From: a virus | Length of the DNA stretch: 46,283 bases | Strand: one strand, 5' to 3' | Virus record (IMG/VR): IMGVR_UViG_3300010354_007935 | Coordinates: 1 to 46,283 of that record | In this document: positions 1 to 46,046 of the stretch, piece after piece | How positions within the stretch are numbered: the first letter of the stretch is position 1 | Layout: each line of letters opens with the position of its first letter | Position numbers and translations under genes: made by a program | Notes under the pieces: model-generated | Databases searched by the model: none | What the model was told of the DNA's origin: nothing | The model's input: only the letters and a program-made list of their open reading frames with translations

Positions 1-643
1 CAATAATGTGCCCACCGAGGCCATGAGCCGCATCGGCACACTCAATGATTGCACTGAGTTGAGGATACCCAACACCAGTTTGTATACGAGTAGTACATAC
101 ACTCCCAGGACCAATACCAACTTTAACGATATCTGCTCCACGTAAAATTAACTCCTGTGTCATGTCTGCGGTAACAACGTTACCTGCAATAATAGTGCAA
201 TGGGGAAACGTTTCTCTAACTTTTTGAACATAGTCACCAAAGCGTTCTTGGTAACCGTTAGCAACATCAATGCAAACAAAATGTATTTCAGGATATGCAT
301 TTATAGTTTGACGTAATTTTAAAAAATCATTATCACTAGTTCCTGTGCTGACAGCAAAATAATTACCGCCAATATCTTCTACAGTTGTGTCAAAATATTC
401 TATGTTGATATTTTTTACTAAACAGGTAAACATTCTATGCCTGTATAGTGCGTGAGCCATATCAAGTGTACCAACACCGTCCATATTGGATGCCATAATT
501 GGAACGCCAGTCCACTCTGTTTTACTATGTCGAAATTTATAGGTACGATTTAAGTCTACTTCTTTACGACTAGAAAGTGTACTGCGTTTAGGACGAATAA
601 GTACGTCTTTAAAATCTAATTTAATTTCGTCTTCAATTCTCAT
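1..643 (-). CDS. guaC: GMP reductase, C-terminal part cut off by the window edge
   Basis: GMP reductase catalyses NADPH-dependent deamination of GMP to IMP in purine interconversion. Translating the minus strand from the ATG at 643 gives 214 residues that run off the window. The IMPDH/GMPR barrel signature is clear: [12 protein letters not shown] near residues 48-59, an AGNVVTAD loop near 153-160, and the catalytic loop [11 protein letters not shown] with the thioimidate cysteine at about Cys183, close to E. coli GuaC Cys186. No CBS domains interrupt the barrel, which favours GuaC over IMP dehydrogenase. Roughly the last 130 residues should lie beyond position 1. Its ATG overlaps the stop of the upstream phosphoribosyltransferase as ATGA, so the two are probably translationally coupled. 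GuaC is uncommon in phages. Confidence 0.88.
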
Positions 644-1233
644 TGTTCCCACCATGCTTCATACGGGAATTCAATCCATACGTCGTTTTCAGCTTTGTTT
701 ACTTCCATACCAACAAAGTCCATACCTATTCTACATTTACTAGATAGGTTATCGACAAGGACTGCAAATTTTACATTATTATTCCAAACATGTTCCCAAT
801 CAGGATCATCAGGTAAACAACTTGCTGGCCAGTCATTCATAATCCAATTAAAGGTAGCACCGGTATCGTTAATATCGTCAACCACAAGAATATTTTTGTA
901 ACTGGGCGGCTCGGGCATTTCTAATAGACTCGATGCGGCCTCTAATACTGCACCGATGTCGTTTTCATCGTCAACATGAATTTCTTGTTTAGGATAGCCA
1001 AATGCGTCTTCAGCCATACCGCAGTCACTAACACATTCGCCGCCGTCACGCAGACTAACTTGCAAAGGTTTCATAGGAACATTTAGGTAATGGCTAATCA
1101 TGACAGCAGGCACTAACCCTCCACGGCTAATACCTACAACATAGTCTGGTCTCCAGCCACTATTACCAATATCTCTACAAAGTTTAGCAACTAACTTTTT
1201 TAAGTCTCGATCTTTAAGGATTAGCTTGTTCAT
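640..1233 (-). CDS. Purine (guanine/xanthine-type) phosphoribosyltransferase
   Basis: This 197-residue type I phosphoribosyltransferase would join a purine base to PRPP to form a nucleotide. The PRPP-binding signature [11 protein letters not shown] lies at residues 117-127, and an N-terminal [10 protein letters not shown] loop near 34-43 matches the hood and PPi loop of Gpt-like enzymes. The C-terminus ends in a WIEFPYE segment resembling the W-x-FPWE tail of bacterial xanthine-guanine phosphoribosyltransferase, so guanine or xanthine is the likeliest substrate. That assignment is inference; hypoxanthine or another base is possible. The gene overlaps folE upstream (ATGA at 1230-1233) and guaC downstream (ATGA at 640-643), forming a coupled three-gene guanine cassette. 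Confidence 0.8.
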
Positions 1234-1976
1234 CGTGGTGCAAATTCCTGTTGCATTTTAATATTGTCAAAGAATTCTTTCTTTGTTCCTATATCGTCTT
1301 TAAAAGCACCTTTGAGTACAGTAGTTTGTGTAAGACTACTATGTGCCATAATACCACGATTCTCACAACATCCGTGAGTGGCTTGGATATACACGCCTAA
1401 GTCTTTTGCGCCTGTGGCTTTTTCGATTTCCCTAGCAATGTCATTGCAAAGTTCCTCCTGGAGAGTACCACGTCGGGCGCACCACTGTGCGATGCGGGTG
1501 TACTTGCTGAGACCGATAAGTTTCTGCGCGGCAATAATACCAATATAAGCAACGCCAACAACGGGTTGGTGATGATGGCTACACATACTGCGAAGCTCGC
1601 TGCGAACAACCAGCATACCAGAATAGCGGTCCTCCGAATCATTTGGAAATGCTGTTGCGTCTGGTGCTGGGTCATATCTTCCTGCCATTATTTCGTTAAA
1701 GTACATTTTAGCAAGGCGACGGGCTGTGCCTTTACTATTAGGATCGTTTTCACGATCAATCAGCAACCGATCAAGCACCAGTTCAAATGCTGGTGTAGCT
1801 TCGTCGATAAGTTTTTCTATGTCGCCTTCGTACAAGTAGTCACTGATGTTATCACCTGCCCAAAAGCGTTTGCCTTCGCGTCGCATCTTAAAACGAATGT
1901 GATCTCCTAAGTATGCTTCTGAATATCCACCGTCGCCTGCCATTGCGTCTAGTGCTGTTTCTTTTTTATTGGTCAT
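1230..1976 (-). CDS. folE: GTP cyclohydrolase I (FolE)
   Basis: FolE converts GTP to 7,8-dihydroneopterin triphosphate, the first step towards folate or 7-deazaguanines. The start at 1976 is set by AGGAG eight bases upstream; an in-frame ATG at 1997 lies inside a promoter -10 box and is unlikely to be used. The 248-residue product has the canonical zinc and active-site motifs: MCSHHH with Cys132 and His135, IGLSKYTRIAQ, CARRGTLQEEL, and ATHGCCENRG with Cys203. The family usually has about 220 residues; the extra length is N-terminal. It heads the folE-phosphoribosyltransferase-guaC cassette behind its own sigma70-like promoter. Because QueD, QueC and a DpdA-like enzyme are nearby, a role in 7-deazaguanine synthesis is more likely than folate. 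Confidence 0.93.
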   Translation of the reverse strand: MTNKKETALDAMAGDGGYSEAYLGDHIRFKMRREGKRFWAGDNISDYLYEGDIEKLIDEATPAFELVLDRLLIDRENDPNSKGTARRLAKMYFNEIMAGRYDPAPDATAFPNDSEDRYSGMLVVRSELRSMCSHHHQPVVGVAYIGIIAAQKLIGLSKYTRIAQWCARRGTLQEELCNDIAREIEKATGAKDLGVYIQATHGCCENRGIMAHSSLTQTTVLKGAFKDDIGTKKEFFDNIKMQQEFAPR

Positions 1977-1995
1977 TGTTTCTCCTATCCGTAAC

Positions 1996-2025
1996 ATTAT
2001 ACAGATGTATTTAGGTCCTGGTCAA
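1996..2025 (-). promoter_or_regulatory. Sigma70-like promoter for folE cassette
   Basis: On the minus strand, -35 TTGACC (2020-2025) and -10 TATAAT (1996-2001) are separated by 18 bases, placing the start about 13 bases before the FolE ATG. A CTAAATA late-type box (2008-2014) lies in the spacer and contains the TAA stop of the upstream gene. Confidence 0.65.
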
Positions 2026-4243: not shown

Positions 4244-4664
4244 AATCGTCCTTCACAAGATAATACGTAGTTTTAAATTTTTCAAATGCAATTTTAAGAC
4301 CTGGATATACTTCACACATTTTTTGTACTCGACTCCAATCAGGAAAATGATGTTTCCATTCGGAGTTCATAATGCTCTCCAAATTAGATATATCAAATGT
4401 GCTTATAGTTGCAGTTCCACTAGTAGTAGAGATAGTAGCATATCCACCAGCTCCGCCAATAGTTGAAATACCACTTGTACCAACAGCACCAATTGAATAA
4501 ACAGGAGAACTGGTTAGACCGGTAATTGTTATTGTGTCTGACGCAGATAGTCCACTACTCAAATTGATAGAACTAAAATCTATAGTATCAGCAGATGATC
4601 CTATAGTAATAGTATCAATTTGCGATTGTGTTAAGTAACCCGGTTGCTGAGAAAAAGTGCTCAT
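4218..4664 (-). CDS. Fibre-like phage structural protein with conserved C-terminal domain
   Basis: The 148-residue protein begins with a low-complexity Ser/Thr/Gly/Ile region of beta-solenoid or fibre character (about residues 15-95) and ends in a compact domain, HHFPDWSRVQKMCEVYPG followed by an amphipathic FEKFKTTYYLVKDDYD segment. I recall this C-terminal domain at the ends of several marine T4-like phage proteins, where it is of unknown function. The start at 4664 has GGAG at a suitable distance, although it lies 50 bases inside the glycosyltransferase gene. It is probably a virion component; the partner at 3406-3801 has the same fibre-then-helix layout. Confidence 0.68.
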   Translation of the reverse strand: MSTFSQQPGYLTQSQIDTITIGSSADTIDFSSINLSSGLSASDTITITGLTSSPVYSIGAVGTSGISTIGGAGGYATISTTSGTATISTFDISNLESIMNSEWKHHFPDWSRVQKMCEVYPGLKIAFEKFKTTYYLVKDDYDNPNTKK

Positions 4665-5691
4665 GTAAAGACTCCGTTTGTTGTTTAAGCTGTGGAAGTC
4701 TCGATTCGTAATAGTCCATATGACTCATTATTGCTCTGCATAAATCAGGTCTATAAACATTATAAGCATCCCAGCTTTCTGTCCATTTGCTTTGATATTT
4801 AAAAATATTAAAATACATCTCTGTGTAACTGAGTCTATCAGGAACCATAGGAATAGCGTCTACTACTGCGCCTTCGTAACAACTAATGCCTAAAGTTTCT
4901 TGTAGGTTGGCAGAAAAAACTAACTTGGCCTCGCCTAACAACGTGTGATATTCATGTTTTGTTAATTTTTGATCCTGACACACTACAAATTCATATTGTG
5001 GTAAGTGTGTAGCTAAGTCTCGAAAGATCTCAACTTGCTTCTCTGGAGCGATCCTATGAGGGAAAAGGATCAAGTCACGTTTCTTCATGCCTTTATATGG
5101 TGCCAATGTATCTAGCATATATTCCATTGGCCAGCCTGTGCGTACAATTTTACCATCTTTTATATATGAAAGTTTTGCTGTTTCAAAATCTATACCTAAT
5201 AGATTATGACAAAACATTTCAATATGAAAGTCTGTGGCAAAATAGTTATGGTCGATAGCATGAAAGAAACTTTTTTCAGCATAACGTACCCACGGAGCGT
5301 TGCCAATAAGGCGTCCTAAAAAGTCTTGAGGATCATAGCTACCAGCATGCCATAGTGCGTGAATAGTTACAGGTATCTGTAACAGTTCACTCATATATTT
5401 TAAGTTTATGATACCAGGATGCCAAGCATCAGTAAACAAAAAATGATCGCCAGGCTTAACTGCTCCGGATGTAAATAAGCGACTAAATTCCTCAACTTGA
5501 CGAGACTTGTATATATTAGTCCCGCCAAAATTGAGAAAGGCACCAGGAGTAGTGGCACTAGGAATATCTTCAGGACCAGAGATAACTTGAATCTCATGTC
5601 CTGCCCTTTTAAAAATTTTGGGTACATGTTCTTTCCATTGTGCAGTATATCGAGTTTCAACTGCTTCTAAGTCTACAACATAAACGGTCAT
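4615..5691 (-). CDS. GT-B fold glycosyltransferase
   Basis: The 358-residue protein has two Rossmann-like halves. The C-terminal half carries the retaining GT4-like nucleotide-sugar site: PHRIAPEKQ with Arg213 and Lys218, then an E-x7-E motif, ETLGISCYE, with Glu265 and Glu273. It should transfer a sugar from an activated donor. The acceptor is unknown: phage DNA, virion protein or host lipopolysaccharide are all possible. Neighbouring genes include a cupin, two fibre-like proteins, a Gfo/Idh/MocA oxidoreductase, an MDR dehydrogenase and, further upstream, a UDP-sugar dehydrogenase, which suggests a sugar-modification theme. It overlaps the upstream gene by ATGA. Confidence 0.85.
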   Translation of the reverse strand: MTVYVVDLEAVETRYTAQWKEHVPKIFKRAGHEIQVISGPEDIPSATTPGAFLNFGGTNIYKSRQVEEFSRLFTSGAVKPGDHFLFTDAWHPGIINLKYMSELLQIPVTIHALWHAGSYDPQDFLGRLIGNAPWVRYAEKSFFHAIDHNYFATDFHIEMFCHNLLGIDFETAKLSYIKDGKIVRTGWPMEYMLDTLAPYKGMKKRDLILFPHRIAPEKQVEIFRDLATHLPQYEFVVCQDQKLTKHEYHTLLGEAKLVFSANLQETLGISCYEGAVVDAIPMVPDRLSYTEMYFNIFKYQSKWTESWDAYNVYRPDLCRAIMSHMDYYESRLPQLKQQTESLHEHFFSATGLLNTIAN

Positions 5692-5945
5692 TGTACATAC
5701 GACCTATTATTACCGCTACGGTTATATTCCCCACGAGGCTTACGTGTATTATCCCAAGCCTTCTTTGGCTTTAGACTTTTTTCGTAGTTGCGCCATACCC
5801 AACTTGCTCTGTTATAAAGATCAGCTTCGTTAAACGGAGCCATTTCCATGCAACAAAAGTTGCGGAATGATTCCAAATCGTCAAAGATTTTGACAATATC
5901 CGGACGTTCACTGAAATAAGAAATTTCTTTATAATTTTTAGCCAT
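5688..5945 (-). CDS. Conserved small phage protein
   Basis: This 85-residue basic protein contains the pattern FRNFCCMEMAPFNEADLYNR followed by a Trp-rich WVWRNYEK segment, a pattern I recall from short marine T4-like phage proteins. The C-terminus is Arg/Asn/Gly-rich and probably disordered, so nucleic-acid contact is conceivable. The start has AAAGGAAAG upstream. It ends in an ATGA overlap with the glycosyltransferase. Function unknown. Confidence 0.75.
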   Translation of the reverse strand: MAKNYKEISYFSERPDIVKIFDDLESFRNFCCMEMAPFNEADLYNRASWVWRNYEKSLKPKKAWDNTRKPRGEYNRSGNNRSYVQ

Positions 5946-5959
5946 TATAGCTTTCCTTT

Positions 5960-6355
5960 TTAATACTTAATAAATGAACCATTTTCTCCGTCTTCGGAGA
6001 CCTCAATCCAAACTTCACGGTCTGGATACCTTGCATGAATCTGAGCGTATAAATCATCACTCATCATCTCGCAACTTTTATAATCTAACGACAATACACC
6101 TTCGTTGCTAGAATACAGTTTTTCGAGCCATCGCTTGAATTGTATAAATTCCACATCTCGGTCATTGTGGGTAACACTAAGATAAACCCTAAAATGAAAG
6201 ATATGGCGATGAGGATGGCCCAAGAACGAAACGTCATATTCGTCTCCAGTAGCTAAGTTGGGGTCAGTTAATGCCGCTGGGTATTTGTGAATACCTTCCT
6301 TACGAAATGTGACCCAAATCATTTTGTTAGGACGGATGTCTTGCTTAATAATCAT
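5960..6355 (-). CDS. queD: QueD-like 6-carboxytetrahydropterin synthase
   Basis: QueD converts dihydroneopterin triphosphate to 6-carboxy-tetrahydropterin, the second step of preQ0 synthesis. The start at 6355 is chosen because it makes an ATGA overlap with the preceding gene and has AGGA upstream. The 131-residue product shows a divergent pterin-synthase fold: HPHRHIFHF for the metal-binding His pair, DVEFIQFKRWL where the family has VDFxxLK, SCEMMSDDLYAQI in place of the PTAENLA helix, and IEVSEDGENGSF near the end, where the substrate-binding Glu lies. Divergence means that PTPS activity cannot be excluded. The FolE, QueC and DpdA-like genes in the same window support the 7-deazaguanine role. 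Confidence 0.82.
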   Translation of the reverse strand: MIIKQDIRPNKMIWVTFRKEGIHKYPAALTDPNLATGDEYDVSFLGHPHRHIFHFRVYLSVTHNDRDVEFIQFKRWLEKLYSSNEGVLSLDYKSCEMMSDDLYAQIHARYPDREVWIEVSEDGENGSFIKY

Positions 6356-6885
6356 GTTGGAGTATCCTGTGTATATTGATCCCAATAAGTGTATTTGTCT
6401 TTACTCATCAGGCTTGGAAGATGATGTGTCCAAACACCGGGATTGGTAGCACCCCAAGTGCGGTCATCGATTTTAAGTGTTGCATTGTAATTGTAAAGTT
6501 TAATGTAAGGCAACTTTACACTAATCATAGGAATAAATCTATCATGCTCGGTCCATCCATCTTCATGGATTTCTTCGGCATATTTTACATCAAAGTCTAA
6601 CGTAACCCAATAGCCGGCTTTAAGACAACCCATAATGCGGTCGTCCCAAGTTTTCCATTCTTCATAAGTGCTAGGATTAAAACTTTGGCTAGTACCAAAA
6701 TAAATTTGTTTGATTCGTTTAGACTCGTCTAGCATGGACTGTGTTTCATCTGCCTTACGCAGAATTTCTTCTAGAGGAGGAGTACCTACTACAAATAATG
6801 TGTACATTCCATAGGCAATCGTGTGTTCTACTTCGTAGCCTGTGAAGTATACAATACCTTGCCGTTCTTCTGTATTCAATCCCAT
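6352..6885 (-). CDS. Unassigned phage protein coupled to QueD
   Basis: This 177-residue protein of unknown function is well structured: FTGYEVEHTIAYGMYTLFVV near the start, a central WVTLDFDVKYAEE strand region, then VKLPYIKLYNYNATLKIDD and GATNPGVWTHHLPSL. I recall homologues in marine T4-like phages, often near the pterin synthase gene. The start at 6885 has GAGG upstream; a longer reading that would add a CGWC motif lies inside the MDR dehydrogenase and has no support. The stop overlaps the queD start as ATGA. Strict coupling to queD hints at a role in the deazaguanine pathway, but there is no radical-SAM CxxxCxxC motif, so it is not a normal QueE. Confidence 0.75.
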   Translation of the reverse strand: MGLNTEERQGIVYFTGYEVEHTIAYGMYTLFVVGTPPLEEILRKADETQSMLDESKRIKQIYFGTSQSFNPSTYEEWKTWDDRIMGCLKAGYWVTLDFDVKYAEEIHEDGWTEHDRFIPMISVKLPYIKLYNYNATLKIDDRTWGATNPGVWTHHLPSLMSKDKYTYWDQYTQDTPT

Positions 6886-7772
6886 TTGATATAACCTCTG
6901 CTGTAGCCTTCTGGACGATCTGCACCATCCGCAAATGCTTGTTGCCAATTTGTATCACGATTGTAGCTTCTTGTCCAGAAAGAATCAACCTCTAGATAAC
7001 CGTTTTCAATCCAATGTTTGGCAAAGTGCATACAATTAATAAATTCGGGATGTCTTGGACTTGGAAAAACCATAGTGCAGGCTTTCCAAAGTAGTTTTGA
7101 AAAATCTGTAGTTACAGTTTTTTGAGCACCAAAAATTACTAACGCATTTTCTCTCAAAATATCTTTATCAAAAACATCTGTTTTATTACTTAAATCGATA
7201 ACAACATCGTAGTTTGCCTCAGTTTTTTCTTGTAATATATCTCCCCAGAGGTCTTTATTATTAGATCCTACAACATCTACTTGATAAAAATAACCGTTGA
7301 GTCGCATAGTATGATACGCAACCCATGCTAAAAAACCACTACCTAAGATTAACATACGAGAATGTACACCTTGACGTTCTTCAATAAGTCGTTGCGTCTG
7401 GTTTATAAGGTTAATGCCGCATGCTACTGGTTCAAGTATGTATTTAGGAGTTGCTTCTGGTACTACAACAAATTCGTTTTTACGGACATTATAGTAATCT
7501 GCATAAGCAGGTTCTCCTCTGGTAGCAACAAAATCTCCAATTTTAACATCTTTTGTATTGCTTCCGACCTGGACTACTTGACCGAGGCCCTCGTGACCTT
7601 GCATATAGATAGGCAATGGACCAAAGGTTCCTTGCATCATATCGATATCGCTACGGCATACTCCAGTCATAATGGATTTAACAACAATTTCGTCGGGTGT
7701 ATGTTCAGGTTTTTCCCAACCACCTTCACTAAAGGTGCCTGTACCAGTAGTCATTAAAATTCTTGTACGCAT
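6876..7772 (-). CDS. Zinc-type medium-chain dehydrogenase/reductase
   Basis: The 298-residue protein is an MDR-family oxidoreductase. The catalytic-zinc region is present as TGVCRSD (Cys39) and QGHEGLG (His60, Glu61), followed by a GDFVATRGEPAY stretch and a Rossmann segment LILGSGFLAW. It is shorter than the usual 340 residues, and the four-cysteine structural zinc lobe is missing. The family oxidises alcohols or polyols with NAD(P); the substrate here is unknown, but sorbitol- or threonine-dehydrogenase-like sugars are plausible given the adjacent Gfo/Idh/MocA enzyme. Translation can start at 7772 with TAGGA upstream, or at a second ATG (7754) that overlaps the previous stop. Confidence 0.85.
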   Translation of the reverse strand: MRTRILMTTGTGTFSEGGWEKPEHTPDEIVVKSIMTGVCRSDIDMMQGTFGPLPIYMQGHEGLGQVVQVGSNTKDVKIGDFVATRGEPAYADYYNVRKNEFVVVPEATPKYILEPVACGINLINQTQRLIEERQGVHSRMLILGSGFLAWVAYHTMRLNGYFYQVDVVGSNNKDLWGDILQEKTEANYDVVIDLSNKTDVFDKDILRENALVIFGAQKTVTTDFSKLLWKACTMVFPSPRHPEFINCMHFAKHWIENGYLEVDSFWTRSYNRDTNWQQAFADGADRPEGYSRGYIKWD

Positions 7773-8641
7773 AATTTTCCTAATTGTTTATGTATCCATA
7801 AATCTTGCTCGTATTGGTTAATCCAAAATTCGTTGTTATTTAGGTTTTTAACAGCAGTCTCGATCATTTTTTTATAAGCCGATTCGGGGCACAAACCTAA
7901 TGTATGTTTTATTGCGCTACTATCTGAACTAAAGCTAATATAAACATCATCGGATTTATCGTCTTTCCAATTAGCACTTAGAATCCATTTTGTAGTTCCG
8001 CTGTAGTATTCTAATTCTGCAAAGTCGTCAACATTGTATGTTCCGTTAGGATTTATATTTCCATAATCGGTGCTACTAATGTCTTTTAGTTTATGTCGCT
8101 GTATTGCTGAAGCAAATATTCGCGTTCCTGTTTTGTAATTTGTTAAGCAGGTATAGTAACTTAGCATATGAGGCATTAGATCTCTACTAACTCCTCCGAA
8201 TGCTAATTCTCGTGTAGTGAACCAACTACCGGGGTGGGGAATACGATTTTTATTATTCCATATAACATGTACACGTTTACTACTGTCTGCTAGTCTTTGA
8301 AATTCTGCTATTTCGGGTCTATATTGATTATTCTTAACCATCATAAATCGTGTATTAGGATAATCTTCTACAAGACATTGCCAGCATTTAGCATCGACTA
8401 CGCCTGGTTTTTCAACTAGTACAATTTTACATTTATTAGCAATAGTACGAGCAATTAACTCGTGTGTATAGTTAGGAGTACAAATCACTGCAATGTCGTA
8501 ATTGTCAGTAATTTCGTCTGCTGATCGAAACGTTGCATTTTTTTCAACACTAGGATCGACAGTATCGATATCAAATCCTAAACTTTTAAAAACACTTTGG
8601 TATAGATTGCCTATACCCATGCCTATGATAAGACTACGCAT
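7754..8641 (-). CDS. Gfo/Idh/MocA-family oxidoreductase
   Basis: The 295-residue protein has the N-terminal Rossmann glycine loop GMGIGN (7-12) and the family's signature EKP (Glu77-Lys78-Pro79, in VLVEKPGV), whose lysine is catalytic. The C-terminal half fits the alpha/beta substrate domain. These enzymes oxidise or reduce sugars, inositols or nucleotide sugars with NAD(P). Together with the MDR dehydrogenase immediately downstream, it forms a two-gene redox pair next to a glycosyltransferase. A sugar precursor for glycosylation is the best guess; the substrate cannot be read from sequence. The start overlaps the upstream small gene by eight bases. Confidence 0.87.
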   Translation of the reverse strand: MRSLIIGMGIGNLYQSVFKSLGFDIDTVDPSVEKNATFRSADEITDNYDIAVICTPNYTHELIARTIANKCKIVLVEKPGVVDAKCWQCLVEDYPNTRFMMVKNNQYRPEIAEFQRLADSSKRVHVIWNNKNRIPHPGSWFTTRELAFGGVSRDLMPHMLSYYTCLTNYKTGTRIFASAIQRHKLKDISSTDYGNINPNGTYNVDDFAELEYYSGTTKWILSANWKDDKSDDVYISFSSDSSAIKHTLGLCPESAYKKMIETAVKNLNNNEFWINQYEQDLWIHKQLGKLCVQEF

Positions 8642-8882
8642 TTTTGTTTTCTTTTGATTGTTCGTATTGTTTAAATAATCTTGTTACCGGTTCCATGCGT
8701 TCAGCAAAGATGTCTGGACTGGCTTCGGCAGCACGTTGCATATCCCATTCACTAGGATAGTGTCTAAGACACCACCTAGCATTGTCTTTAACGGACTTAG
8801 GTATGCGAGGAGTAGTAAGAAGCTCTTCAAGAAACTTCTTAGTTTGTACTACTGCTCGATACCGTTCGTCAGGTAGCGTCAT
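8634..8882 (-). CDS. BPSL0761-like small protein
   Basis: The 82-residue product begins MTLPDERYRAVVQTKKFLEE, which matches the small BPSL0761-type family found in phages and bacteria. The pattern continues with PRIPKSVKDNARWCLRHYP and a helical C-terminus. Function is unknown. The start at 8882 is preferred over the ATG at 8900 because homologues, as I recall them, begin at this Met; neither has a strong ribosome-binding site. Either start overlaps the end of the DpdA-like gene, so translation probably depends on it. The position directly after dpdA makes an accessory role in that system worth considering. Confidence 0.75.
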   Translation of the reverse strand: MTLPDERYRAVVQTKKFLEELLTTPRIPKSVKDNARWCLRHYPSEWDMQRAAEASPDIFAERMEPVTRLFKQYEQSKENKNA

Positions 8883-10419
8883 GACCCAATTCCAATTCAT
8901 CTAGTTTATCAATTTCGTCTTCGGTAAACTCACCGTCGTCATTGGATTGTACAGTCTCTGTCTCTACTTCGTCAAAGAATTCGAAATACTTAGTACTCGA
9001 GTTGACAGTTTTCTTACCAATTGCACCTCGTGTACCAGGAATAGCCATCCAAAAACGACTAAAGTCCTCGATGATTTCGTCACTTTCTGCTTTACTGCTG
9101 GTAGCAAAAATAGCTTCAACTACATCTTTAAAGTAAACTCTATTGATGTTTTCTTGTACTAGCATATTTGGACACAACCCAGCATCATACTGACGGTTAG
9201 CTTCTTGTACGCTATTCAAATGTTGCCAAACATTATGGCCCATCATAATAGCATAACTAAAACTATCCCATGAAGTTTTACCTTCTTTGCCAATCTTATT
9301 TAGATCACCGGGGTTATAAATGCAAATGTCCTTGACTGGAACACCATCCATAACAGGACTAGTAGTAAAAGACTTAAAGTGACCATCTTGTACTACTGCA
9401 TCTTGGAAGAGTCTTGTGTCTTGGGCATACTTTTTGTCATCAATAGACGGCAACATGCGGTAGAGCCATTTTTGCCTATCTGCGATTTCTGTCTGGACGT
9501 AGATTTGTCCGTTTGCAGTTGCGAGGAACGGTGAGGCGCAGTCAAAAGAGATGGTAAAGTTTTCATTATGATATTTCCTTACAGCACGTTGAATGTCTGT
9601 GAGCAATAATGCCCACTCCAGTTTACTAGTTCCTAGAAAGTGCATCCAATCTTGTTTGCCTTTTTCTAGGAGACCATCATGACGAAGTGCAACAATACGT
9701 TTTAATGTAAGATGCACATCGCACATGTTCTGACCACCCATAGCCCAACCATTAAAATGGTTGCTATACTGCTTAGGGTCGCAATACTGTTTCATACGTT
9801 GATACCAGTCTTCGGCATCAGTATGATTTTCACCTTGTAAAACATTTAAGAACTTGCAATTACCGTTGCGATTTTTAATAAAGTAATCATTATTAATATA
9901 AGTTCCTTGCACCGCTTCTGCGTAAGTGCTAATACCAGTAGCTTTTTGACCAGCAGGACTACGAGCAACCCACGCAGGAATATCAAGAATCATGCCGTAG
10001 TCCATTAGACTATCCATCCAGGTTAATACCTGAGCACGTTTTTTAGCAGCCTTAGGACAATTAGGATCTTTCCAATCACCTTCCCATTTGCCTTTACCGA
10101 TTTGAAATCCACCAGAGTCGCCTAACACCCAACTTGTTCCGCGATTACGTTTACGGAACATGTCTTCACTATCGTCTTGTTTGTTAAGATCTAAATTAGC
10201 ATGTCCTGCACTATATAAACAATGGTCATAGTAGAATAGACCTTTATCAGGATCTAAAAAATTTAGACTCTCTACTCCGTTAGTAAAAGTTTTAGGCACA
10301 CGGTTAGGATCTACGTAATTTCCATAACGCTGTTTTCCGATAAATGTGCTATAAAAACCGGAAACAGCCGGAAGAAAATATGCGTAGTCGTTTTGTGCGG
10401 CTGTTAAATTACGATTCAT
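8869..10419 (-). CDS. dpdA: DpdA/TGT-like DNA transglycosylase
   Basis: The 516-residue protein belongs to the tRNA-guanine transglycosylase superfamily. It has the base-recognition motif LGDSGGFQIG with Asp101, and a second catalytic segment SFDCASP with Asp293, positions that mirror Asp102 and the nucleophile Asp280 of bacterial TGT. It lacks the CxCxxC zinc cluster expected of tRNA enzymes and has a long N-terminal region, which, with the phage context, fits the DpdA group that exchanges guanine in DNA for preQ0-type 7-deazaguanines. FolE, QueD and QueC are encoded in the same window. Modified DNA would resist host restriction. The alternative, a tRNA-queuosine enzyme, is less likely. It overlaps the TauE/SafE gene by 11 bases. 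Confidence 0.82.
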   Translation of the reverse strand: MNRNLTAAQNDYAYFLPAVSGFYSTFIGKQRYGNYVDPNRVPKTFTNGVESLNFLDPDKGLFYYDHCLYSAGHANLDLNKQDDSEDMFRKRNRGTSWVLGDSGGFQIGKGKWEGDWKDPNCPKAAKKRAQVLTWMDSLMDYGMILDIPAWVARSPAGQKATGISTYAEAVQGTYINNDYFIKNRNGNCKFLNVLQGENHTDAEDWYQRMKQYCDPKQYSNHFNGWAMGGQNMCDVHLTLKRIVALRHDGLLEKGKQDWMHFLGTSKLEWALLLTDIQRAVRKYHNENFTISFDCASPFLATANGQIYVQTEIADRQKWLYRMLPSIDDKKYAQDTRLFQDAVVQDGHFKSFTTSPVMDGVPVKDICIYNPGDLNKIGKEGKTSWDSFSYAIMMGHNVWQHLNSVQEANRQYDAGLCPNMLVQENINRVYFKDVVEAIFATSSKAESDEIIEDFSRFWMAIPGTRGAIGKKTVNSSTKYFEFFDEVETETVQSNDDGEFTEDEIDKLDELELGHDAT

Positions 10420-11368
10420 TATTAGATTTTTTCTTTAAATAAAAGCTACCTACAAATATAGCTAACATTGTAGCTAAAGTCACTATTGTTGGTACAATTA
10501 GAGGAAGATTTTTACTCATAAAGTAAAAATAATTTACTGCGTTCATAGCCAAAACAGTCCATAGCATTGTTTTCTTGTTGACCCATCCTAGTAAAATATT
10601 ACCAAAAGGTGCAAAGAACAATACTACAGGTGCTGCCGCCAGCCACATATGATAAACTTCTGGTTGTACAGCATCGAGTACTAGTCCTCTATAGGCAATT
10701 CCAAAAACAGTGACAACAGCCATTAAAACAATACTAATATCAGTACTGATTTTTTCCTTCATACCGTAGTAACATGTAAGTGCAATATAAATTAACATAT
10801 CGGATCCTGTACCAAACATAGCACTAGCACATCCTCCAATAAACGACCAAACACTAAAACTAAGTAGTCGTTCTTTACTATCAATATCTACCCGATCTTC
10901 GTTACCGTTGCCGCGTGTGAACAAGTATGCTAAAATAAACGATAGTGCCAAGCTAACAAATAACATTTGAGTTACCTTGAAAGCAACTAAATGATATATG
11001 CTAGACATAAAAATAAATCCAGCAAAATTGACTAGTGCATAAAATGGAACCCATTTAAAAGTTGATAGGCTATGACCTTTCCTGGTTAAAATCCAAATAG
11101 CTGCTGATACCATGCCAATACTTTGAATAGCTAGGCTAAAGTCTCTAGCAGCCATTGGGGTAATTTTAAAATATAAACTTAGTATTGGAAAAGCAACTGC
11201 TCCACCGCCTTCGGGAGTAAATCCTGCAATAGCAGATCCGAAAATCATCATTATTGCGTAGAGCCAGTGTGTATCATATAATGCAAAGCCCGGCCCAGTT
11301 AAAATTAAGTATAACCAAGTGATCAATACTGCGCTTGCCCATATAGGCCAAATTAGTTGTTTAATCAT
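10409..11368 (-). CDS. TauE/SafE (TSUP) family membrane exporter
   Basis: The 319-residue protein is an integral membrane protein with about eight or nine hydrophobic segments arranged as two repeats. Each repeat has the family's glycine-rich reentrant-like motif: GFTPEGGGAVAFPIL near residue 53 and FGTGSDMLIYIAL near residue 185. TauE/SafE proteins export sulfite, sulfoacetate or other organosulfur anions across the cytoplasmic membrane. The partner gene upstream encodes a DUF2061 membrane protein, and the start overlaps it by eight bases. This looks like an auxiliary metabolic gene inserted between the sliding clamp and dpdA. The substrate is unknown. Confidence 0.83.
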   Translation of the reverse strand: MIKQLIWPIWASAVLITWLYLILTGPGFALYDTHWLYAIMMIFGSAIAGFTPEGGGAVAFPILSLYFKITPMAARDFSLAIQSIGMVSAAIWILTRKGHSLSTFKWVPFYALVNFAGFIFMSSIYHLVAFKVTQMLFVSLALSFILAYLFTRGNGNEDRVDIDSKERLLSFSVWSFIGGCASAMFGTGSDMLIYIALTCYYGMKEKISTDISIVLMAVVTVFGIAYRGLVLDAVQPEVYHMWLAAAPVVLFFAPFGNILLGWVNKKTMLWTVLAMNAVNYFYFMSKNLPLIVPTIVTLATMLAIFVGSFYLKKKSNNES

Positions 11369-12347: not shown

Positions 12348-13108
12348 CGTATTTTATTATTGTATTCAACCGATTCTTTTAAAATAGTAAGCGGTTTATT
12401 TAGGCCATAACTGTATTTTATAAATGCAGTTGTATCTTTAGGGAAACAATGTCCACCCCATCCTCGTTCACCGTCTGGTCCAGGAACCATAGTATGGTCT
12501 GTACCAATGCGAGTATCATGGCCTAAAATTTGTCGTACGACATTAAAATCTGCGCCATTTGTTTCGCACATGTCGTAAATTTGATTAAAGAAGCTAGTTT
12601 TAACTGCTAAGAAACTGTTAGCAGTATATTTGATAATACTAGCTTCTAAATTTGTACAACCAAAGTAAAGTCTGCATTTAGGCAATGCTGGTGTAAAGAG
12701 GTCTTGCCAGAAACATTCAGGATCTTCCCCACCGATAATCATAAACGTTTGATTGGCAAAATCTTGCTCTGCTGTTCTTGCTCTTAGAAATTCTGGACTG
12801 TAAACAATGCTATGGTCGGGATATTTGCTATCTAATTCAGAAACAACATCTGGACTAACTGTACTTTTAATTAATACAGGTATATGAATAGGGCATTGAT
12901 CTAAAATGTTAGTGACTTGACTAGCATCGCATTGCCCATCAGCAGTACTTGGTGTTCCGACACAAATAATAATACCGTCTGCATCTATGTGATTTGTAAT
13001 GGTATTAGTATTAAATTTAGGATCGACAATTTCTATAGAATAGTGTTTTTTAAGATTGTTGGCAACTGCCTTACCAACAAATCCGTAACCGGCGATGATA
13101 ATTTTCAT
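12344..13108 (-). CDS. UDP-glucose/GDP-mannose-type dehydrogenase, short form
   Basis: The 254-residue protein oxidises a nucleotide sugar to the uronic acid, as UDP-glucose 6-dehydrogenase does. It has the NAD-binding loop GYGFVG (7-12), the GTPST motif near 51, the lysine-containing NSFLAVK (Lys170) and the catalytic cysteine in GGHCFPKD (Cys221). It ends just after the central domain and lacks the C-terminal UDP-sugar-binding domain of standard enzymes (about 400 residues). That could mean altered substrate use or pairing with a host subunit. It overlaps the polymerase stop by ATGA, so it is co-translated with gp43. A link to sugar modification of virion or host surface is possible. Confidence 0.85.
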   Translation of the reverse strand: MKIIIAGYGFVGKAVANNLKKHYSIEIVDPKFNTNTITNHIDADGIIICVGTPSTADGQCDASQVTNILDQCPIHIPVLIKSTVSPDVVSELDSKYPDHSIVYSPEFLRARTAEQDFANQTFMIIGGEDPECFWQDLFTPALPKCRLYFGCTNLEASIIKYTANSFLAVKTSFFNQIYDMCETNGADFNVVRQILGHDTRIGTDHTMVPGPDGERGWGGHCFPKDTTAFIKYSYGLNKPLTILKESVEYNNKIR

Positions 13109-15774
13109 AGTTCAAATAAACTGTTAAATGTGTTCTTTTCTTCTGTGCTACTAATATTCCAGTTTAGGACACCAATAAGGTTTTCTAATTTCTTATCGAT
13201 AATAGTAGCTTCCATTTCGTCATGAGCAAATGGCAAGTCTTTGAACCATTGCGGTAAACGTAACTCGTCCACAGGATAAGCAACACTAGTAAACTCTAAT
13301 GGATTAGGTTTAAGTTTACAAACAATAACCTTAGCACCGTCAGTAATATTCATACTATACTTGTCACTGAACATGCGCTTTAATGTATTCCAGTTAATAC
13401 TAGCACGAACATGACCAGGCATGTTAGCTTTGCCTTGTTTCTTTTCCTTGCTTTCGTAATCGGTAATATTGTTGGCACGTTTAGGCGAACCTTTCTCCCA
13501 ACCTGGTCTTGCTTTAAATGCAATGCGGAACTCGCTAATGTAATCTAACACTTCTTGTTCTGTAGCACCAGTTAGTACCATTTCTAAAACTTTACTTAAA
13601 AAGTCTTGGATAAATTCTGGAGTATCGCTACGCTTAAGATCTAAGCCCATAGCTTTAATCTTACCGGGTTTGCCGTCTATGTCTGTACGCTTACCTTCTT
13701 TATCGTAATAAAGAACTGCATAACGCTTTTTAGTAATAAACAACGATTTACTGCCAACAATTTCACGCCCAGCTTTAATAACTTCTCCACGTGTCTTTGG
13801 ACAATGGAAAGCGTCAAGCATAAATTGAGGGAACGTTTCATTCACGTCGCTACCAATTTGATCATACAGTTGAATAACAGTTTCCTTATTCCACGGAATA
13901 AGACCTTTATCAATATCTTTTTGCAAAGTTTTATATGCACTAAAATAACAACTGTCAGTGTCGCCGTAGATAATTGCTTTACCTACATGGTTATACTCGC
14001 CGCAAACGATTTCATTAACTTTGGAAGCCATGTGCTTTGCAATCTGACGCCCAGTAAGAGTTGTAGATTGGCCGATACGTTTATCAAAAAAGCGACAGCC
14101 AGGATTAAGAATAGCCCCATAGAGGGAGTTGAGGTTAATTTTTTTGACAAGCTGTCGTTTGTCCCAGTATTCTTCTTCGATTTTATTTCCAGCATTTATA
14201 GCCTCCTTTAGTTTGGCCTGCATCTCTTTACGTTCTGCATACCAACGTTTTAGTAGCCCTGGAATAATACCTTCCTTTTCATAAGTGAAGATTGTGCCAT
14301 TTGCTGAAAGCATCCAGGGTTGATTGCTTTCAAAAATTAATCTATATGCTTCGGCGGCACTGAGCGCATCACTAGATCCATCTTCCCAGTCGATAGTAAT
14401 GTTGGTACCGATTTCTTCGTTCATTACAGCTTCGTACTCAAGACTGCCAAATTTGCCTTCCCAAGCAGCCGCAAAACTTTTACCTTTAGCAATTTGTTCT
14501 TGAATGTACTCTTCGGTCATTGTTTGGCGTAACTGACCAACAATAGTTTCTGGGCCCATGTTTAGCGCACGAATGGCACTAGGATAAAGACTGTTAATAT
14601 CTAATGAACCGACCCAATCGTGAATACCTTCTTTAGGATAAGCGACATACGCACCGGCAGCGCCTTCGTTATCCTCACGTTCACTCATTTTAGTTCTATT
14701 AGGAACAACAAAACCTCGCCGATGACTTTCGTTAATAATAGCCTGCTCTGTTACAGCCACGGCACCCATTGTTGTCTGTAGCAGTACAGTATTTTCATGT
14801 GCCAGTGTATTGGCAAGATCCAAGAACTTTAATTTTTTATCAAGTCTGTCCAATAGCGCACAGTCTTGACGGTTGTATTCGATGAACGTTTTGAAGTCAT
14901 TGTTGTAGAGTTGATCCAATGTACCTTCGTATTGCGTTTTGCGTTCACCAAGTTCGTATTCCGCGATAGCATCCAGTCGATAGGAGTGGCGTTCTTCATA
15001 TGTGTACTTTCTGTAAAGTTCTAAACTATCTAAATGAACACGACCAATAAAGTCGTATGTTGTAGCAGTACGACCAAATTTTTCGTATTCGCGCTTTTTA
15101 GGAAACTGATTAAACAAACAAAAACGTCTTGTATCTTCTTTGCTCAATACTTTTGTAACACGATTAACAGTATAGGGAATATCAAAGCCTTCGCTGTTCC
15201 AACCTGTTAAAATATCTGCATCTTCTATCAGTGTTAGAAATGTGTTTAACAAATCGCCTTCGTTGTCAAACAACATTGTATTAGGAAATTCTTCAACTTG
15301 TTTTTTAGCTTCTTCCATAGACATCTTTTTTGGCGGAATAGCCAAGCAGACCATAGTGTCTAGCCATTGTAGGTGAACAGCGATGGCAGTGATTGGCATA
15401 AAAGCATCATCCGGTGACGCATAACCACGTTCTGGATCGAAGTCCACCTCAATATCAAAAAATGCTACATTTAATTTGGGAGCATCTTGGTTGAGATAAT
15501 TTTCACTTAGACAAACGAAGATTGGATTAATGTCAGTTTCGTAAAGTGTCTTGCTACTGTTAATAGCCATTTCTTTACGAAGTTCTTTTGTGTTCTTACA
15601 AACAATACGGCTAACAGGATCTCCGTAAATCGAAGTATGTTTGCCCTTAGCATCTTTGTAATATAAGGTGTGTTTGACAGGAATGTCTCGAAATTCCCTC
15701 TCACCTTTTTTATTGCGTTCGACAATTTTGATGATATCATTATCGCGGTCGAACCACGCATCTACGTAACTCAT
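13105..15774 (-). CDS. 43: Family B DNA polymerase (T4 gp43-like)
   Basis: The replicative DNA polymerase with proofreading. The start at 15774 has AGGAG seven bases upstream; an upstream ATG at 15804 lacks one. The 889-residue protein has all expected motifs: Exo I FDIEVDF (about 107), Exo II NSEGFDIPY (about 193), Exo III YNRQD (300-304), motif A DINSLYPS (392-399), motif B KINLNSLYG (545-553) and motif C YGDTDS (603-608). A conserved C-terminal tail should bind the clamp. Length and domain order match T4 gp43 (898 residues). The leader has a sigma70-like promoter and a hairpin with an eight-base loop, as described separately. Confidence 0.97.
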   Translation of the reverse strand: MSYVDAWFDRDNDIIKIVERNKKGEREFRDIPVKHTLYYKDAKGKHTSIYGDPVSRIVCKNTKELRKEMAINSSKTLYETDINPIFVCLSENYLNQDAPKLNVAFFDIEVDFDPERGYASPDDAFMPITAIAVHLQWLDTMVCLAIPPKKMSMEEAKKQVEEFPNTMLFDNEGDLLNTFLTLIEDADILTGWNSEGFDIPYTVNRVTKVLSKEDTRRFCLFNQFPKKREYEKFGRTATTYDFIGRVHLDSLELYRKYTYEERHSYRLDAIAEYELGERKTQYEGTLDQLYNNDFKTFIEYNRQDCALLDRLDKKLKFLDLANTLAHENTVLLQTTMGAVAVTEQAIINESHRRGFVVPNRTKMSEREDNEGAAGAYVAYPKEGIHDWVGSLDINSLYPSAIRALNMGPETIVGQLRQTMTEEYIQEQIAKGKSFAAAWEGKFGSLEYEAVMNEEIGTNITIDWEDGSSDALSAAEAYRLIFESNQPWMLSANGTIFTYEKEGIIPGLLKRWYAERKEMQAKLKEAINAGNKIEEEYWDKRQLVKKINLNSLYGAILNPGCRFFDKRIGQSTTLTGRQIAKHMASKVNEIVCGEYNHVGKAIIYGDTDSCYFSAYKTLQKDIDKGLIPWNKETVIQLYDQIGSDVNETFPQFMLDAFHCPKTRGEVIKAGREIVGSKSLFITKKRYAVLYYDKEGKRTDIDGKPGKIKAMGLDLKRSDTPEFIQDFLSKVLEMVLTGATEQEVLDYISEFRIAFKARPGWEKGSPKRANNITDYESKEKKQGKANMPGHVRASINWNTLKRMFSDKYSMNITDGAKVIVCKLKPNPLEFTSVAYPVDELRLPQWFKDLPFAHDEMEATIIDKKLENLIGVLNWNISSTEEKNTFNSLFEL

Positions 15775-15811
15775 ATTTTCTCCTATGCAATTTACGGCTT
15801 GCAAATACCAA

Positions 15812-45018: not shown

Positions 45019-45477
45019 ATGAATATACACGCAGATAAAGAGTTTTGGACTACATTAAAATGGCCTGCTGCACCCAATGAGGACGATTTTCGTGTATTTG
45101 CAAAATATTGTACAGGGCGTGTATTATTGCTTGGTAGTACTAAGCTTCTGCTTCCTCTGGCAACAGAAGCTTGGGATTTAGATCCTAAATATGACGATCC
45201 TAAAATTAAAAACAAGGATTGGTTTTCCCTAAACGAGCATTGGGATACAATAATAATTGATGGCGGCTTGGCATTTGGTAAAGAATTTACAGAGCGTGTT
45301 CTTAATGTAGTTATTCCTAATTGTAATTGCTTTGTAGCTCGTGCTTTTCTAAACCCTAACTGGCCTACAAAATATGCGGTGTACTTTCCTCGTGCCGAAG
45401 AACTAACACCGCAGCCTGAAGAACACCCTATTAACGAAGTTTACACATTTTTCATATGGAACAACAAACAATCTTAG
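45019..45477 (+). CDS. Small Rossmann-like (methyltransferase-like) protein paired with QueC
   Basis: The 152-residue protein has a nucleotide- or SAM-binding pattern: GRVLLLGSTKLL as a glycine loop, AWDLDPKY with an acid after the second strand, and WDTIIIDGGLAF where class I methyltransferases have motif IV. It is short, has no identifiable target-recognition part, and could be a non-catalytic Rossmann protein. It lies on the plus strand, opposed to the fibre genes, and overlaps queC by 22 bases. Because it is linked to queC, a role in making or modifying a 7-deazaguanine is a reasonable guess, unproven. Confidence 0.65.
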   Translation: MNIHADKEFWTTLKWPAAPNEDDFRVFAKYCTGRVLLLGSTKLLLPLATEAWDLDPKYDDPKIKNKDWFSLNEHWDTIIIDGGLAFGKEFTERVLNVVIPNCNCFVARAFLNPNWPTKYAVYFPRAEELTPQPEEHPINEVYTFFIWNNKQS

Positions 45478-46046
45478 CCATGTACTCAGGCGGTTTAGAC
45501 AGCCTAGGCATGGTCTACAAACTGCTAACTGAAGAACAGTACAAAAACTACAAGTTACACATTCACCACGTTCACCAGCGTAATGTTGAGAACCGTGATC
45601 GTGCGGAAGCTATCACAGTAGAAATGGCTCTAAAAGAACTAGAGAGATTAGGTTACAGTTTTGTCTACAGTGAAAGCGAAATAGGCACACAACCCTATAA
45701 CGGACAGTTTATGTATGATACGGACAGCATCAATTTCTTTGCGGGTTATGTTTGTTCAGTAAATCCTAATATTGTAAAAGTTGCCATGGGTATGCAGAGA
45801 AACGATGCTAGTCAACGATTAGAAGAACGCCGTATTCGTGCTAATAAAATCCTACAGGCATTTACACCTGCTGAAAAGATATTTCCTGTAATTGACATGA
45901 CCAAACGTGAGATCTACGATATGCTACCAGAAACGCTACGTAATATGTTTTGGAGTTGTAGAACTCCTGTCTACACTGAAAAAAATATCGCACCCTGTGG
46001 AAGGTGCGATACTTGTTTAAAACTTAAAGAACAAGGTATTCGTTAA
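45456..46046 (+). CDS. queC: QueC-like 7-cyano-7-deazaguanine synthase
   Basis: QueC turns 7-carboxy-7-deazaguanine into preQ0 using ATP and ammonia. The 196-residue protein has the PP-loop SGGLDS (11-16) of the adenine-nucleotide alpha-hydrolase fold and the QueC C-terminal zinc site: Cys168, Cys181, Cys184 and Cys187 in WSCRTP...PCGRCDTC. Length is slightly below E. coli QueC (231). The cassette sits on the opposite strand between fibre genes. An intrinsic terminator for the opposing transcript is encoded within the codons of its zinc site. It completes most of the preQ0 pathway with FolE and QueD. Confidence 0.9.
   Translation: MEQQTILAMYSGGLDSLGMVYKLLTEEQYKNYKLHIHHVHQRNVENRDRAEAITVEMALKELERLGYSFVYSESEIGTQPYNGQFMYDTDSINFFAGYVCSVNPNIVKVAMGMQRNDASQRLEERRIRANKILQAFTPAEKIFPVIDMTKREIYDMLPETLRNMFWSCRTPVYTEKNIAPCGRCDTCLKLKEQGIR
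45979..46011 (-). terminator. Intrinsic terminator for the fibre transcript, antisense within queC
   Basis: On the minus strand, TATCGCACC and GGTGCGATA form a perfect nine-base-pair stem with an eight-base loop, followed by seven T residues (complement of 45979-45985). It lies 32 bases after the fibre stop at 46043. The same bases on the plus strand encode the QueC zinc-binding cysteines. Confidence 0.8.

Follow-up and report, generated by a model that had tools for sequence, protein, structure and literature searches.

The closest described systems are those of phages that encode a transglycosylase of the DpdA type. Enterobacteria phage 9g has DpdA1 together with FolE, QueD, QueE and a QueC, while Vibrio phage nt-1 has DpdA2, a TGT-superfamily enzyme without zinc motif that is encoded with 7-deazaguanine synthesis genes, including QueC. 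Phage nt-1 carries dPreQ0 in its DNA and phage 9g, whose QueC is a fused Gat-QueC, is reported to contain dG+ (Hutinet et al. 2019, PMC6884629). Sugar is added to modified phage DNA by DNA glucosyltransferases of the T4 type. These enzymes have a GT-B fold. Campylobacter phage CP220 is reportedly highly modified with dADG, and Cui et al. 2023 are said to have predicted a decarboxylase of 7-carboxy-7-deazaguanine (CDG), DpdL, as well as further DpdA subfamilies.

The window analysed here is a stretch of 46,283 nucleotides, the first 46 kb of a virus record of 110,283 bases (IMG/VR record IMGVR_UViG_3300010354_007935). It encodes a TGT-superfamily protein, called TGTx in the following, at the head of an operon:

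8869..10419, minus strand: TGTx, DpdA-like transglycosylase of the TGT superfamily, 516 aa (AlphaFold2 fold, catalytic residues, own clade)
8634..8900, minus strand: w88, small BPSL0761-family protein (NF041728, 68 bits, cut-off 35; conserved position)
7754..8641, minus strand: MocA, NAD-binding oxidoreductase of the Gfo/Idh/MocA type (PF01408, 8e-7)
6876..7772, minus strand: ADH, alcohol-dehydrogenase-like protein (PF08240, 4e-12)
6352..6948, minus strand: p198, conserved operon protein (present at most related loci, see below)
5960..6385, minus strand: DpdLq, small protein, candidate CDG-converting enzyme (phrog_17812; invariant residues; near-exclusive with QueC)
5688..5945, minus strand: open reading frame of 85 aa between DpdLq and GTx (ORF list; 4-base overlap with GTx)
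4615..5691, minus strand: GTx, predicted GT-B (GT4-type) glycosyltransferase, 358 aa (model, GT4 matches, conserved motifs)
1230..1997, minus strand: FolE, GTP cyclohydrolase I (PF01227, 1e-37)
640..1233, minus strand: PRT, purine-type phosphoribosyltransferase, possibly for guanine salvage (PF00156, 3e-11)
2..655, minus strand: GuaC, GMP reductase, cut by the contig end (NF003470, 1.8e-97 on 218 aa)

The transglycosylase TGTx

TGTx is genuine as a gene: a single open frame, as read in an earlier note on this DNA, with an ATG start and on the minus strand, which that note had not given. As a single sequence the protein has no useful family match among Pfam, PHROG, NCBIfam or PADLOC models, phmmer with the protein found no match among PDB sequences, and hmmsearch of the PDB with a 69-row profile gave nothing useful. 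An AlphaFold2 model built from an alignment of 69 diverse relatives (mean pLDDT 91.3) has the TGT fold: the best 50 Foldseek matches and the best 50 VIA-align matches are all tRNA-guanine transglycosylases, the best with Z 18.7 over 305 residues at 16% identity. In a profile alignment, D101, D146, Q195, G229 and D293 of TGTx align with the bacterial TGT motifs DSGGFQ, the FD aspartate, QG, GG and FDC; we take them to be the counterparts of D102, D156, Q203, G230 and the nucleophile D280 of Z. mobilis TGT. All three aspartates, including those of the DSGGFQ (D101) and FDCASP (D293) motifs seen earlier, are invariant in 69/69 diverse relatives.

TGTx thus shares fold and catalytic Asp, Gln and Gly positions with bacterial Tgt, but differs from it in sequence (about 14-16% identity), in its clade and in the zinc site: CxCxxC, already noted as missing from TGTx, is found in 0/69 of its relatives. 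In profile comparisons (hhalign), TGTx has the highest similarity to DpdA2 (E 2.9e-9), followed by TGT (7e-8); the TGTx profile gives just 18-25 bits with the DpdA2 of Acidovorax phage ACP17. There is no detectable profile similarity to the DpdA of phage 9g (hhalign probability 0.2-0.4%), and searches of the 9g record with the TGTx profile and of CP220 for TGTx returned no match. When a phylogenetic tree is constructed, TGTx proteins (95/93), tRNA TGTs (100/99) and DpdA2 proteins (100/99) form separate groups, with long branches that make the deep order unsafe. A position of the protein among tRNA TGTs, which the earlier note had named as refuting its reading, was not seen. TGTx, clustering apart from nt-1 DpdA2 in well-supported clades and lacking recognisable similarity to 9g DpdA, belongs to neither the DpdA2 nor the DpdA1 subfamily. 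It is a candidate DpdA in the broad sense, with TGT fold, catalytic aspartates and 7-deazaguanine synthesis genes encoded alongside. These sequence comparisons place TGTx in a distinct branch of enzymes predicted to swap guanine for a 7-deazaguanine, apart from tRNA TGT and DpdA2.

The modelled fold, shared with tRNA TGT, does not by itself fix whether the substrate is DNA or tRNA. TGTx could be an enzyme that alters host or phage tRNA during infection, and the tRNA of some organisms contains glycosylated queuosine. However, the zinc motif is absent from all 69 relatives, the TGTx clade lies outside the tRNA TGTs, the genes lie near a DNA polymerase gene both in the window and in Pseudomonas phage PA5oct, and bacteria that carry TGTx also have a separate housekeeping TGT. 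In addition, TGTx is exchangeable with DpdA2, whose phage nt-1 has dPreQ0 in DNA (PMC6884629): the partner genes of TGTx are found in ACP17, Xanthomonas phage X1 and Synechococcus phage BUCT-ZZ01 with a recognised DpdA2 as the transglycosylase. We consider a tRNA substrate very unlikely. The central idea of the earlier note, that a phage system for DNA modification with 7-deazaguanine includes a DpdA-like transglycosylase, is well supported by this exchange together with fold, active site, phylogeny and the conserved operon, and a DpdA-like DNA-modification function is highly probable.

Operon structure and conservation

The operon is compact, with mostly overlapping genes running from 10419 down to about 3400 on the minus strand: TGTx, w88, MocA, ADH, p198, DpdLq, the 85-aa frame and GTx follow each other with an overlap at every junction except one, and FolE, PRT and GuaC lie farther down the same strand. 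In IMG/VR relatives the order TGTx-p198-DpdLq-GTx-FolE-PRT-(QueE) is conserved on one strand with TGTx at the head. The pathway genes had been described as split over 45 kb and two strands; this apparent dispersal was caused by mis-assignment of QueD and QueC (see below).

Conservation was counted in a near set of 13 loci (8 kb downstream) and a distant set of 43 loci (5 kb downstream), both picked by TGTx alone; since loci were gathered by similarity, the counts describe the TGTx family rather than phages at large, and records are often fragments. DpdLq, GTx and p198 are each present in 13/13 near loci and FolE in 11/13; at distant loci GTx is found in 42/43, DpdLq in 40/43, p198 in 38/43 and FolE in 31/43. 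Two of the three distant loci without downstream DpdLq have it upstream instead. The protein p198 has no Pfam match, and a homologue adjoins DpdA2 in ACP17. The w88 gene, which overlaps TGTx, is frequent in near relatives, if not universal. MocA is optional (7/13 near loci), as is ADH, which in our counts always occurs together with MocA.

FolE, predicted earlier from 1230 to 1976, was borne out by its Pfam match. PRT (10 of the 13 near loci) has its best NCBIfam matches to XPRT/HGPRT, under the cut-offs, and its counterpart in BUCT-ZZ01 is annotated xanthine-guanine phosphoribosyltransferase; GuaC is present in a few loci only. In many relatives QueE follows FolE/PRT. No QueE was found in the source record, itself a fragment; the left end of the record cuts through GuaC, and a queE gene may be situated past it. 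The QueD of the record is outside the window at 65153-65566 (60 bits, above the Pfam cut-off).

Other genes of the window are phage-like, among them the DNA polymerase (13105-15804). A TauE/SafE-like membrane protein (10409-11368, minus strand; PF01925, 7e-13) overlaps the start of TGTx and is not common to the related operons examined. Elsewhere in the record, the minus strand has two adjoining very long open reading frames of 3607 and 1444 aa at about 46-61.5 kb (L006:4657-15480, L006:44-4378) and four consecutive radical-SAM genes at about 70.1-74.9 kb (L007:8068-12871), three of which pass the cut-off for twitch-domain radical SAM proteins (NF033640, 322-370 bits). Two further radical-SAM genes are at 93.4 and 108.8 kb; none of the radical-SAM genes is QueE.

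DpdLq and QueC

The gene at 5960-6385 had been read as QueD (5960-6355). Neither this protein nor 31 relatives pass a PTPS/QueD family cut-off, with no QueD/PTPS match in Pfam, NCBIfam or PHROGs, and QueD was thus rejected; the protein belongs to phrog_17812 and is called DpdLq here. Invariant residues are H23, H49, H51, H63, E69, S94, E96, E121 and D122. A first hhalign comparison with a small QueD set gave a probability of 1.4%, and a larger QueD set gave a weak match (47.6%, reversed control 0.1%). The invariant His/Glu pattern and this weak match fit, but do not prove, a QueD-like T-fold, and a remote relationship is possible. DpdLq occurs in 26 phage records and is near folE, queE and/or queD in all 11 annotated neighbourhoods inspected. 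In Vibrio phage Bakedbeans (L333:14212-15363) and Chryseobacterium phage MA9V-3 (L338:14464-15345) it is the C-terminal part of longer proteins.

The proposed QueC (45456-46046, plus strand) lies 35 kb away from the operon and is a short PP-loop ATPase, in which an SGGLDS loop and a complete set of QueC-like zinc-type cysteines are present. It scores 30.2 bits on PF06508 (cut-off 22) but only 22.5 bits on TIGR00364, against an equivalog cut-off of 150.3, and 0/10 related environmental records have a PF06508 match; it was rejected as the QueC of the pathway on both grounds. Among phages, a relative was found in Saccharomonospora phage PIS 136 alone (27%).

Whole-record searches found no QueC in 14 DpdLq-bearing or related records (PA5oct, Sinorhizobium phage Phosso, ACP17, RHph_I1_18 and ten environmental relatives). 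Conversely, nt-1 and Vibrio phage 2.275.O have a strong QueC and no DpdLq was detected in the stretches examined; in nt-1 there is also no GTx near DpdA2. L116, the sole distant locus with neither DpdLq nor GTx, carries a QueC-like gene in which the motifs are complete, and its TGTx branches, with weak support, with that of 2.275.O. Among seven further DpdLq phages, partial PP-loop signals are seen in two, X1 (16 bits) and D479 (32.8 bits); the latter, a partial QueC-family match, exceeds the Pfam cut-off and counts against a replacement of QueC. Since QueC and DpdLq almost never share a record, the most economical interpretation is a replacement of QueC by DpdLq, with CDG as the source of the base.

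A more conventional DpdA system would have a host QueC, an enzyme that is often host-encoded, complete CDG to preQ0; TGTx would insert preQ0 or a closely derived base, and the functions of DpdLq and GTx would lie elsewhere. TGTx does resemble DpdA2, the transglycosylase of the dPreQ0-containing phage nt-1 (PMC6884629), and one TGTx phage, Vibrio 2.275.O, has QueF and QueC in addition to FolE. Both the near-universal presence of DpdLq and GTx in the operon and the near-exclusive occurrence of QueC and DpdLq argue against this arrangement, which we regard as quite unlikely. The absence of QueC from related operon phages also contradicts the preQ0-derived base of the earlier note. From the gene contents, the modified base is probably made from CDG rather than preQ0, and we expect with some confidence that the base itself is not preQ0. 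DpdLq may be the DpdL of Cui et al. 2023, and TGTx and DpdLq could coincide with some of the DpdA3, DpdA4 and DpdL proteins of that study.

The glycosyltransferase GTx

GTx, like DpdLq in its proposed role as a small protein replacing QueC, was missed in the earlier note, and these two are the more novel parts of the system. The single sequence has no Pfam match, while 32/64 relatives match PF00534 (Glycos_transf_1). The AlphaFold2 model (pLDDT 95.4) has a GT-B fold and is closest to GT4-type enzymes (Z 26.5, 318 residues, 3.1 A). E273, R213 and K218 are present in 64/64 relatives and E265 in 58/64, with Asp in the other six (EX7E motif and donor-site Arg/Lys). Model and motifs identify GTx as a predicted intact GT-B glycosyltransferase. 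GTx shares the GT-B fold with the T4-type DNA glucosyltransferases, but its resemblance is to GT4 retaining enzymes (BshA, MshA, sucrose-phosphate synthase), and its gene goes with 7-deazaguanine genes rather than hydroxymethylcytosine genes.

GTx accompanies TGTx as well as, in ACP17, X1 and BUCT-ZZ01, DpdA2 and DpdLq. Because these associations hold whichever transglycosylase is present, a role in the 7-deazaguanine pathway is likely from gene context, and the hypothesis that suggests itself is sugar hypermodification of the base. A difficulty is the acceptor: at position 7, plain 7-deazaguanine has no obvious hydroxyl or exocyclic group for a sugar. Either such a group is retained in the product of DpdLq, therefore, or GTx acts on something else. 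The base could then be plain 7-deazaguanine or CDG, with GTx acting elsewhere, for example on another base or on a host surface molecule, and six DpdLq phages (RHph_I1_18, Bakedbeans, Ahp1, D479, phiST and MA9V-3) have no GTx in the stretch examined. Such a separate target is at odds with the ties of GTx to two kinds of transglycosylase, with the overlap of its gene with operon genes and with bacterial loci, in which GTx is tied to TGTx and a relative of a precursor transporter; we consider it unlikely, if well worth keeping in view. For glycosylation of the modified base we are close to undecided, leaning slightly against. The literature searched holds nothing that joins a glycosyltransferase to phage 7-deazaguanine; key work of 2023-24 lies outside this search, and novelty is provisional. 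For jumbo phages, one review has predicted deazaguanine only and the paper on phage Callisto makes no mention of DNA modification.

Distribution in phages and bacteria

Tblastn searches identified TGTx homologues, all annotated as hypothetical, in PA5oct-like Pseudomonas jumbo phages (36% identity), Phosso (28%) and Vibrio phage 2.275.O (29%); PA5oct, MIJ3, Callisto, Paride and Phosso are cultured carriers. One query of IMG/VR returned 568 related stretches, and a distant query matched a number of stretches that can be given only as a lower bound. Several jumbo phages have the operon, as do considerably more than a hundred different virus fragments from the environment. With 568 related stretches and a fixed gene order, chance is excluded as the origin of the system. 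In a virus record of 223 kb (G005), the TGTx frame (162825-164441; L348) holds one in-frame TAA.

Relatives of TGTx are also encoded in genome contigs of bacteria and archaea, at 43 loci. At seven loci in alphaproteobacterial chromosomes (L276, L281, L283, L285, L286, L288, L289), all without folE or queE, TGTx and GTx adjoin a Vut_1/queuosine-precursor-transporter relative, a match below curated cut-offs. This set is possibly a bacterial DNA-modification island. Integrases are found near some alphaproteobacterial TGTx loci, and large proteins of 634, 642 and 897 aa recur beside TGTx in these bacteria. A PADLOC scan of bacterial TGTx neighbours gave nothing useful.

Proposed pathway

We propose that TGTx is a post-replicative DNA-guanine transglycosylase. 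FolE, QueD and QueE would make CDG, which DpdLq, in place of QueC, would turn into 7-deazaguanine or another non-preQ0 base. TGTx would then swap guanine in phage DNA for this base, using D293 as nucleophile and D101, and GTx would glycosylate the modified base or its 7-substituent from a sugar nucleotide that the MocA/ADH pair, where present, might tailor. Transglycosylation would release one free guanine per insertion, to be recycled by the phosphoribosyltransferase, together with GuaC where present. The likely benefit of the altered guanine would be protection against host restriction. We hold this explanation as a whole with moderate confidence. A broader proposal is tentative and, taken in full, somewhat doubtful: a glycosylated 7-deazaguanine might be present in the DNA of many phages from aquatic habitats and of PA5oct-like Pseudomonas jumbo phages. 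CDG would be its source, with no preQ0 step; a transglycosylase branch not assigned before would insert it, and a dedicated GT-B glycosyltransferase would add the sugar. The related set of transporter, glycosyltransferase and transglycosylase may do the same in alphaproteobacterial chromosomes.

If this is true, a transglycosylase branch missed by standard annotation joins the DNA-camouflage repertoire of phages. The system points to a route around preQ0 and to a glycosylated purine-type base in phage DNA, neither of which was found described in the literature searched, and it would give a concrete reason to examine the DNA of therapeutically interesting P. aeruginosa jumbo phages for modified bases.
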